From: Maridesulfovibrio sp.
GTDB lineage: Bacteria > Desulfobacterota > Desulfovibrionia > Desulfovibrionales > Desulfovibrionaceae
Reading direction: 5' to 3'
Assembly (NCBI RefSeq): GCF_963676065.1
Contig: NZ_OY780933.1
Location: forward strand, 2,830,122-2,894,121
DNA length: 64,000 bases
The translations under genes were made by a program, and so were the position numbers. Numbering within the stretch: position 1 is the stretch's first letter; each line of letters opens with the position of its first letter. A model generated the notes under the pieces. It was given only the letters and a program-made list of their open reading frames with translations. It had not been told where the DNA came from and made no database searches. This document shows, piece after piece, positions 15,129 to 16,942 of the stretch.

Positions 15129-16151
15129 TTATAGATCGTTTATTATCCCCGGAAAATCGTTAAAAATTACCGTTGCACCGGTTTTGTGGATGATGTTGGT
15201 AAAATTATCAGAAATATTACTGATAGTTATATTTTTACCTTGTTCACGAAATTTACGGCTCAGAAAACACAGTGTTTCAAGACCAGTAAGAGTAGCACCG
15301 CTGGTTTCTGATAAATCCAGAGCCGGTGAAAAATTACGCTTCAGCATCCTCATCCCGGCACGGAGAAGCTCAGGGGCTAAGTCTTCGTCAAGCACTCCTA
15401 TAATTTCTATTCTGGGCGGAATGCAGGTCTCGGTGTAATTAACGGAAGAGCCCATGGATAATGTTCTTTTCCGGCTCAAATCTTCAAGAAAATTTATTTC
15501 ATCACGCAGGAGCAGCAGCGGAGTCAGAATATTTTCCATCTTGTCCGTGAATTTGTTCTTGTCGAGATCCTGCGGAATGCAGATCAACATACCTCCATTA
15601 AGTTCATTATAGATATCGGCAAGATGCCTGCCGATTGATTCTGGTGGAGCGGAAATAAGCACGATATCAGGCTGTAGATCGTTCGCGCTGGCTACAATGG
15701 ATTGCGCATCAAGCTCGTCCAGTTCCCCTGCGGTTTTAAAATGGGTGAATAAATCCCATGACAGGGGAACAAAACCATCCCGCACTAGGATATCCGTTTT
15801 TAGCGCCGTTTCAGAAACATGGAGCATGCTGAATCCGTAATGGGCGCATATACGGGCTATCTGTTCAGGAAATTCAAAATACTCTATGGGCATTTTAAGT
15901 TTAATTCCGGCTTTCTCGGCTATGGCGAGCAGAGACGAGTCCGCAGGAAGGATGAAATCCGCCGTAAATGGGCAGAAATCAGGATGCTTGGCATAATCCA
16001 GCATCCACGGAAAAGAGGGCGCGAAGATCATGCTTTTATCTTTTATGCCTGCTTTTTCGCCCACGGTAAGCATCAGCTCATTGAAATCCATATTGAAGAA
16101 TGGGATTCCGAAGGCCAGCTTTATACGGTCCGGGTTATCAAAAATGTCCAT
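15129..16151 (-). CDS. WecG/TagA-like domain fused to a STAS domain
   Basis: A 340-residue protein. Residues about 1-190 resemble the WecG/TagA/CpsF glycosyltransferase fold: an initial FGIPFFNMDFNE strand, a FAPSFPWMLDYAKHPDF helix start, ADFILPADSS where the family has a DG-type motif, and PDIVLISAPPES where the family has PD-V-GxP-QE. Several usual catalytic positions are altered. Residues about 247-340 look like a STAS domain: a PALDLSETSGATLTGLETL core with Ser281/Ser284 in the phosphoserine region. It is soluble with no signal peptide. It converges with priA and lies 53 bases after the smr-type gene. Function unknown; it may be regulatory rather than catalytic. Confidence 0.6.
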   Translation of the reverse strand: MDIFDNPDRIKLAFGIPFFNMDFNELMLTVGEKAGIKDKSMIFAPSFPWMLDYAKHPDFCPFTADFILPADSSLLAIAEKAGIKLKMPIEYFEFPEQIARICAHYGFSMLHVSETALKTDILVRDGFVPLSWDLFTHFKTAGELDELDAQSIVASANDLQPDIVLISAPPESIGRHLADIYNELNGGMLICIPQDLDKNKFTDKMENILTPLLLLRDEINFLEDLSRKRTLSMGSSVNYTETCIPPRIEIIGVLDEDLAPELLRAGMRMLKRNFSPALDLSETSGATLTGLETLCFLSRKFREQGKNITISNISDNFTNIIHKTGATVIFNDFPGIINDL

Positions 16152-16204
16152 GTACAGGACCTTAATTTATTAAATTGTTGGTTGGTTTCAGAGTTGTATA
16201 ACCA

Positions 16205-16942
16205 TTAAGCATCCCAGTCGATGCTTTTAGCCCATTGCACCTTGCCCTTAACCTTTTTCTGCTTGCGTAGAAGGATGTAGATGGCTCCTGCTCCGCCGTC
16301 CTTGGGTTGGGCAGTGCAGAAAGCGAGTACTACGCGGCGGAAAGGTTCCCGGGTCAGCCATTCCTGAATTTCTCTTTTGAGAACTGAGTGCCCTCCGGGG
16401 GAATTCTTGCCCCTGCCGGTGACCGCCAGAACACATCGCTTACCCTGCAGGAATGATTCGCGGATGAAGAAAAGCAGGTTGTCATAAGCCTGTTCAGAAT
16501 TCATGCCGTGCAGATCTATATGAGATTCATAGCTGAATACGCCCATTTTCAGCTTTTGGAAAACTTTTGAGTCTGTGCCGCGTACAAAACCGAACATAAA
16601 CTCATCGGAATATTCCATTTCAAATTCAATTTTTCCGGACACAAGGCTGCTCAGGTATTCTTTGCCTTCGTCTTCTTCTGATTTTTTTGTTGCAGGTGCC
16701 GGTTTGGGAGGTGTTACCGCTACAGTGGAATTGTCCATACGATCAACACCGACCATGGCGTCCATGAACGCCTGATCATCATTCACTTCTACTTCCTTTT
16801 CCTGCGGTTGAACGGGGGCCGGTTTTTGTTTTACAGCTTCAAGTGCCTTTCTAACCGCTTTGGATAAATGCTTATCTTTTTTATCATCTTTGAACTTCAA
16901 ACCTTTCAGATCAGAAAGGGAGTTCATTTTTTTCTTAGCCAT
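16205..16942 (-). CDS. Smr-domain protein
   Basis: A 245-residue protein with a lysine-rich N-terminus, a low-complexity Pro/Lys/Glu linker (about 35-95), and a C-terminal Smr domain. The Smr hallmarks are DLHG (143-146) and TGRGKNSPGGHSVLK (about 175-189), ending in ALAFCTAQPKDGGAGAIYILLR-like strands. Smr domains nick DNA or RNA; bacterial SmrB cleaves mRNA at collided ribosomes. Here the domain stands alone, without MutS2. AGGAGA lies about 8 bases before the ATG. The gene upstream of 15129 shares its strand and is probably co-transcribed. Confidence 0.9.
   Translation of the reverse strand: MAKKKMNSLSDLKGLKFKDDKKDKHLSKAVRKALEAVKQKPAPVQPQEKEVEVNDDQAFMDAMVGVDRMDNSTVAVTPPKPAPATKKSEEDEGKEYLSSLVSGKIEFEMEYSDEFMFGFVRGTDSKVFQKLKMGVFSYESHIDLHGMNSEQAYDNLLFFIRESFLQGKRCVLAVTGRGKNSPGGHSVLKREIQEWLTREPFRRVVLAFCTAQPKDGGAGAIYILLRKQKKVKGKVQWAKSIDWDA

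Follow-up and report, generated by a model that had tools for sequence, protein, structure and literature searches.

A conserved Maridesulfovibrio protein joins a WecG/TagA-like domain with altered catalytic motifs to a STAS domain

The window analyzed here is a stretch of 64,000 nucleotides from Maridesulfovibrio sp., a member of a genus of sulfate-reducing bacteria. At positions 15129 to 16151, on the minus strand, it carries a gene for a protein in which a long helix connects a WecG-like domain to a STAS domain (an open reading frame [ORF] of 340 codons plus the stop codon). An earlier note on this DNA had claimed an ORF at these positions. The ORF is real and lies on the minus strand, on which the note was silent; plus-strand frame 1 over the same positions is interrupted by stops. 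Residues 9 to 195 of the encoded protein, referred to below as the window protein, were assigned by predicted fold, profile, and alignment to a domain of the TagA/WecG fold from which the canonical catalytic residues are absent (15567 to 16127, minus strand). In the AlphaFold2 model, a long helix is predicted at residues 201 to 231 (15459 to 15551, minus strand), replacing the Arg-bearing C-terminal appendage of WecG/TagA. The STAS domain, recognized by profile and fold, occupies residues 234 to 336 (15144 to 15452, minus strand). That the two domains are WecG-like and STAS, respectively, is very nearly certain.

Directly upstream is a gene for an Smr endonuclease domain (16205 to 16942, minus strand; PF01713, E 9.3e-23), which probably belongs to the same operon. 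From the smr stop codon to the start codon of the window gene there is a gap of 53 nt (16152 to 16204, minus strand), which contains an AAGG stretch that by eye is ribosome-binding-like. The Smr-domain protein has a long N-terminal stretch, and its best NCBIfam matches, SmrA and SmrB, were both well below the cut-off. At all 17 orthologous loci, smr is the gene immediately upstream, in the same orientation, and at 8 of them it overlaps the gene or ends within 15 nt of it. Among the 11 wider regions compared, smr precedes the gene in all 11 and priA lies convergently downstream in 9, with sufC/sufB-like genes (named by eye) beyond priA. At L091 and L097, priA was not found in the region examined, so this convergent neighbor is not fixed. 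Short, GC-rich, palindrome-like sequences that look REP-like by eye were seen in the smr-gene gap at a few loci, namely GCGCTTCGCGC at L010 and L013 and GGCTTCGCCGGGT at L010, L013, and L014.

Judged by gene order, the window protein is probably made together with the Smr-domain nuclease, which would be its likeliest functional neighbor in transcript and in function. A reading that overlaps with our main one goes further and makes the window protein an accessory subunit of the nuclease, with the STAS domain docking Smr or ribosomes and gating mRNA cleavage. The position of smr, directly upstream at every orthologous locus and overlapping or within 15 nt at 8 of 17, is what such a subunit would lead one to expect. 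However, Smr was matched in 53 of the 59 family genomes sampled, yet no relative of the window protein was found at 27 Smr loci from other genera (the best-scoring of 50 matches), 25 of which had enough downstream sequence. The smr neighborhood may reflect nothing more than common descent inside a single genus, and we consider the accessory role unlikely.

For the first half of the protein, no credible Pfam or NCBIfam match was obtained with the window protein or with the 17 orthologs. PF03808 was absent from the families matched by any of the 17 orthologs at E values up to 10, and a search of the protein's own genome for PF03808 gave no match. When the ortholog profile was compared with PDB sequences, its first half matched a single chain, at E 0.86. 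Structure prediction was more informative. The best of five AlphaFold2 models had a pLDDT of 81.7 and a pTM of 0.81 (pLDDT of the other four, 70.7 to 77.0), and in a Foldseek search with the AlphaFold2 model TagA was the best match for the first half (E 3.3e-5). Model residues 9 to 194 matched TagA with a VIA Z of 16.3 and an rmsd of 2.8 Å over 178 aligned residues; among the unrelated folds listed here, KaiC came next, at Z 8.2. The most divergent ortholog, which is 27% identical to the window protein and was modeled with a pLDDT of only 70.3 and a pTM of 0.56, matched TagA at Z 17.6 (rmsd 2.6; 181 aligned).

Profile-profile comparison gave the same answer. When the ortholog profile was aligned by hhalign with 45 of the 46 WecG domains gathered, the match had a probability of 96.7 and an E value of 4.7e-10; with only 8 WecG domains the E value was 2.6e-6. 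The 13 controls gave E values of 0.086 to 0.69. They comprised two comparisons with one profile reversed and 11 with other gene families (16 window genes had been intended, of which 11 had enough sequences and 5 were omitted). From profiles and models taken together, the kinship of the first half with WecG/TagA is far beyond chance and, for practical purposes, established. Residues 9 to 195 share their fold and a distant profile similarity with the WecG/TagA/CpsF family (PF03808; Thermoanaerobacter italicus TagA, PDB 5wb4, 5wfg, 7mpk, and 7n41), whose members differ from the window protein in that the latter has no PF03808 match and is linked to them by profile-profile comparison and predicted fold. 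The earlier note's assignment of residues 1 to 190 to WecG/TagA/CpsF was thus confirmed with slightly shifted limits, and the profile comparison of both halves that it had proposed found both families (WecG at E 4.7e-10; STAS structure 4hyl at E 1.7e-6).

The active site is another matter. According to the TagA report, Asp65 of TagA is the base, Thr37 orients the donor, and Arg221 of the C-terminal appendage acts on the leaving group; the appendage binds the membrane, and TagA without it is inactive (PMC6493773). Asp65 and Thr37 were equated with the DG and TxN motifs from spacing, not from a TagA alignment. For comparison, 23 columns were taken in each of which 85% or more of the 45 WecG domains share the conserved residue. 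In a residue mapping at about 11% identity, which is weak after residue 167, the majority of the 17 orthologs keep 1 of these 23 columns; another 6 are deleted or unaligned, all of which fall after residue 198 of L055. The position of the catalytic Asp, which is Asp in 45 of 45 WecG domains, holds Ala in 10 orthologs, Thr in 5, Ser in 1, and Cys in 1. The Gly that follows it is replaced by Asp (D71) in all 17. In the RVxG motif, Arg is replaced by Pro and Gly by Tyr in 17 of 17 orthologs; where WecG has a conserved Asn, 16 orthologs carry Ser and 1 carries Thr. The Thr position (residue 44) is Ala in 15 orthologs and Thr in 2, counted by eye. The alignment also shows that the PKQE motif is lost. 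In the appendage region, where the alignment is weak, the Arg present in 45 of 45 WecG domains aligns with Asp, Glu, Ser, or Thr, and the Glu-Trp pair is not kept.

The altered catalytic motifs described in the earlier note are therefore real, with 1 of 23 columns kept and Ala, Thr, Ser, or Cys at the Asp position in all orthologs. Compared with WecG/TagA, the window family lacks the catalytic Asp, mostly lacks the Thr, and lacks PKQE and the essential appendage; its first domain leads instead into a long helix followed by STAS. The WecG-like half appears to have lost the known chemistry, from which we infer a loss of activity. Residues that are invariant in the 17 orthologs include D71, P88, Y91, E96, Q97, I101, C102, A103, H104, and P193. 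D71, immediately adjacent to the position of the catalytic Asp, could serve as a base. The alignment of window residues D65 to G82 is gapless, which makes a slip by one residue, with D71 as the original base, less likely though still conceivable. A special conservation of WecG-equivalent positions was considered and rejected: although the replaced positions look remarkably invariant, their conservation does not significantly exceed that of the remaining domain (7 of 17, P = 0.15), and the same holds in the better-aligned block (6 of 10, P = 0.09).

WecG domains joined to STAS domains were also found in other families of the phylum. Ten ORFs score above the Pfam cut-offs for a WecG domain and also for a STAS domain (L065, L066, L067, L131, L132, L134, L135, L136, L137, and L142); they come from 45 WecG ORFs, a share that is biased upward because a WecG-STAS protein served as the query. 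Their Pfam WecG scores are strong (E 1e-47 to 1e-63). Nine of them have tails of about 240 residues or longer, with two Pfam STAS stretches in seven and one in L132 and L134, whereas L142, a 379-codon open frame, has a single STAS. The nine long-tailed fusions keep the Asp, PKQE, and the appendage Args (including L132 and L134, as read from the alignment), and an Asp-Ser motif is present in the tail of all nine. In L138 and L142, the Asp is kept, KKGT or QKGT replaces PKQE, and Lys stands for one appendage Arg; the partial alteration is thus seen outside the genus too, and the two are possibly half-way forms. A STAS tail in L138 was rejected, as no Pfam STAS match was obtained at E values up to 1.

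For two of these fusions the surroundings of the gene could be described. In the L161 region, it adjoins a Polysacc_synt_3 gene and a Kdo/WaaP-kinase-like gene. In L163, a gene for a REC-SpoIIE-HATPase_c_2 protein (L163:3687-5357) lies close upstream of the WecG-STAS gene, and it is plausible that this gene encodes the switch for the adjoining enzyme. STAS-regulated WecG enzymes thus seem, from their sequences, to exist in the phylum; no paper on STAS joined with a glycosyltransferase, WecG, or TagA was found in the open literature. The domain order of these fusions, a WecG-type domain followed by STAS, is that of the window protein, and L142 likewise has a single STAS. In contrast to them, the window protein has no clear Pfam WecG match, catalytic Asp, PKQE, appendage Args, or tail Asp-Ser. 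The earlier remark that no common architecture of this type was known therefore needs qualifying, as the domain order recurs in 10 ORFs of the phylum. The architecture itself is not new, and the window protein stands as the odd one, in which the signatures of the enzyme and of the phospho-switch are both gone. It may descend from these fusions or stem from a separate one.

Such proteins bear on whether the window protein could still be an active glycosyltransferase, tuned by its STAS domain, with a rebuilt active site in which D71 is the base and other residues stand in for PKQE and the appendage. In favor of this, all 17 orthologs have D71, which adjoins the place of the catalytic Asp; unambiguous WecG domains occur fused to STAS in other proteins, in one case encoded next to a flippase-like gene; and L142 has a likewise altered PKQE region with the Asp kept. 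However, only 1 of 23 WecG positions is kept, and PKQE is gone, as is the appendage that TagA requires for its activity (PMC6493773). Nor does the locus look like a polysaccharide cluster; its conserved neighbors are smr and priA (9 of 11 regions), with genes farther out that by eye are sufC/sufB-like. An active enzyme of this kind is improbable in our judgment, with a small but real chance of being correct.

Selection on the gene was estimated from ortholog pairs. For the whole gene, dN/dS was 0.058 to 0.144 in six of seven pairs, the seventh being undefined (saturated); these values are rough, since dS exceeds 1 and is near saturation in several pairs. In the same six pairs, the WecG-like half had a dN/dS of 0.021 to 0.077. 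For the STAS domain the ratio was defined in four pairs, at 0.052 to 0.330, and in each of them it exceeded that of the WecG-like half; residues 196 to 235 had the highest value of the three parts in three of the four pairs with all parts defined. The WecG-like half is thus better kept than the STAS domain, which indicates that it was repurposed and is not decaying. A functionless relic of a WecG-STAS fusion in decay would account for the lost catalytic and phosphorylation sites, but it is hardly credible given the low dN/dS in six of seven pairs and a full-length open frame in 17 of 17 genomes.

The identity of the second half rests on several comparisons. The STAS_2 match of the window protein itself (E 2.3e-4; 21.7 bits) is below the Pfam cut-off of 29.2 bits. 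Among the orthologs, however, 16 of 17 matched STAS_2 and 16 of 17 matched STAS in Pfam, with a best E value of 1.1e-9. A PDB sequence search with the window protein gave a best E value of 0.19, in the STAS part, and the ortholog profile compared with solved STAS structures matched 4hyl best, at E 1.7e-6. In the AlphaFold2 model, residues 234 to 334 matched RsbV with a VIA Z of 14.1 and an rmsd of 2.0 Å over 100 aligned residues; a MlaB-type chain, 7cha_K, matched this half at Z 10.3, and the STAS half of the most divergent ortholog model reached Z 14.9. The STAS domain that had been proposed at residues 247 to 340 is thus found at 234 to 336 by profile and by its RsbV fold match, and in structure prediction the C-terminal part did not turn out to be another fold.

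The window protein shares this fold with the anti-sigma factor antagonists RsbV/SpoIIAA and with MlaB-type STAS proteins. It differs from RsbV/SpoIIAA in its fusion to a WecG-like domain and in the residue at the phospho-acceptor position. The register was taken from an alignment with 1sbo, and position 288 was equated with what we take to be the phosphorylated Ser of SpoIIAA/RsbV. This residue is Leu in the window protein and Ser or Thr in none of the 17 orthologs (Ile in 7, Leu in 5, Val in 3, Ala in 1, and Arg in 1). G290 and E292 of the STAS domain are invariant in the 17 orthologs. The residue just before position 288, at the conserved-Asp position, is Ser in 16 of 17 orthologs and Thr in 1, so phosphorylation could conceivably occur at the shifted site 287.

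In a classical partner switch, the STAS domain would be phosphorylated by an RsbW-like kinase and would thereby release a sigma factor or another partner. Several observations fit such a switch: RsbV is the closest fold of the STAS half, residue 287 is Ser or Thr throughout, a WecG-STAS gene in L163 lies beside a REC-SpoIIE-HATPase_c_2 gene, and the genome has two strong RsbW-like kinase matches. In a search of the whole genome, PF01740 gave 11 STAS matches, none of them the window gene, and there were 15 HATPase_c_2 matches, of which two were strong and RsbW-like. However, these two map to 4063364 and 1279475 in the genome, distant from the window gene (2845250), and each adjoins a STAS gene of its own, about 140 and 40 bases away, edge to edge. 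Among the conserved window genes beside the gene, judged from the query genes, there is no RsbW-like kinase or matching phosphatase. With Ile, Leu, Val, Ala, or Arg at position 288 in 17 of 17 orthologs and with the kinases paired with STAS genes of their own, a classical kinase-driven switch is unlikely, and we would put its probability low. The earlier idea of an anti-sigma-like switch was thus not borne out in its classical, phosphorylation-driven form, and the genome-wide search for partner kinase or anti-sigma genes that went with it led, among strong matches, to these two pairs.

All 17 genomes of the genus, the protein's own among them, carry an ortholog with a full-length open frame; identity of the other 16 to the window protein ranges from 27 to 73%. 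In a contig collection one locus was matched, from Desulfovibrio sp. UBA2564, the one named relative, which puts the genus in the Desulfovibrio group; its protein has the same sequence as the G009 ortholog. No relative was found in the viral contigs searched and no match at E 0.001 or better among viral structures; the single plasmid match was confined to STAS. Among 199 genomes of the family, 18 outside the genus gave matches, none of which extended beyond the STAS part. L046, a 344-codon open frame outside the genus, was rejected as a relative, being by eye a REC-STAS protein. When the order (348 genomes) was searched with the first domain, the 17 genomes of the genus and two others were matched at E 0.1; G102 had an E value of 0.05 in this search. 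The match in G228 (E 3.2e-4) was dismissed as due to chance, as it is part of a 735-aa ORF that looks by eye like a TraD-like ATPase. In a phylum sample of 395 genomes, the first domain matched 15 genomes besides its own at E 1 or better, all over short stretches and with a best E value of 0.027. Across the family, order, and phylum samples, the first domain was not convincingly found outside the genus.

The order-wide search, together with the 27 Smr loci without a relative, suggests that the gene was gained at the base of the genus or has diverged beyond recognition elsewhere. Canonical WecG has a patchy distribution, being present in 10 of the 17 genomes of the genus and absent from the protein's own genome. 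Since the gene is present in all 17, the window protein is no dedicated partner of WecG and is independent of that enzyme.

Taken together, we hold with moderate confidence that the window protein is a cytosolic, probably non-catalytic regulator or adaptor, repurposed as a genus-specific variant. The role of sensor or protein partner that the earlier note had suggested is thus the likeliest outcome, as the catalytic residues are replaced and dN/dS is low. The note's further idea, that the protein may couple the status of sugar nucleotides or lipid-linked sugars to signaling, stays a conjecture. Purifying selection on the WecG-like half is still strong, though the residues that are fixed differ from those of WecG, and so this half probably binds something, which would be either a nucleotide or similar small ligand or another protein. 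Since the position that is normally phosphorylated never holds Ser or Thr, the STAS domain probably serves as a constant docking or dimerization surface. A signal would then pass by ligand binding or conformation and not by a kinase. To our knowledge, non-catalytic relatives of the WecG/TagA glycosyltransferases have not been described. No paper on them was found in the pseudoenzyme and glycosyltransferase literature, in a search that covered mostly open-access journals, and the papers found on the Smr domain with STAS were, by their titles, unrelated.

A more specific and far more speculative version of the regulator reading, to which we give only a slim chance, starts from the STAS-bearing glycosyltransferases of the phylum. 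One of these would have become a non-enzymatic sensor in the ancestor of the genus, its rebuilt pocket reading a cell-envelope precursor or a nucleotide and signaling to the Smr nuclease, made from the same transcript, by way of a STAS domain that needs no kinase. If this were true, envelope status would be linked to RNA quality control. At the broader level, the window family offers a candidate non-catalytic relative under strong selection, aligned across 17 orthologs and standing beside WecG-STAS proteins that mostly keep their catalytic residues. Together, the family and the WecG-STAS proteins make two ideas testable, namely, the control of a polysaccharide enzyme by STAS and the reuse of an enzyme fold for regulation.
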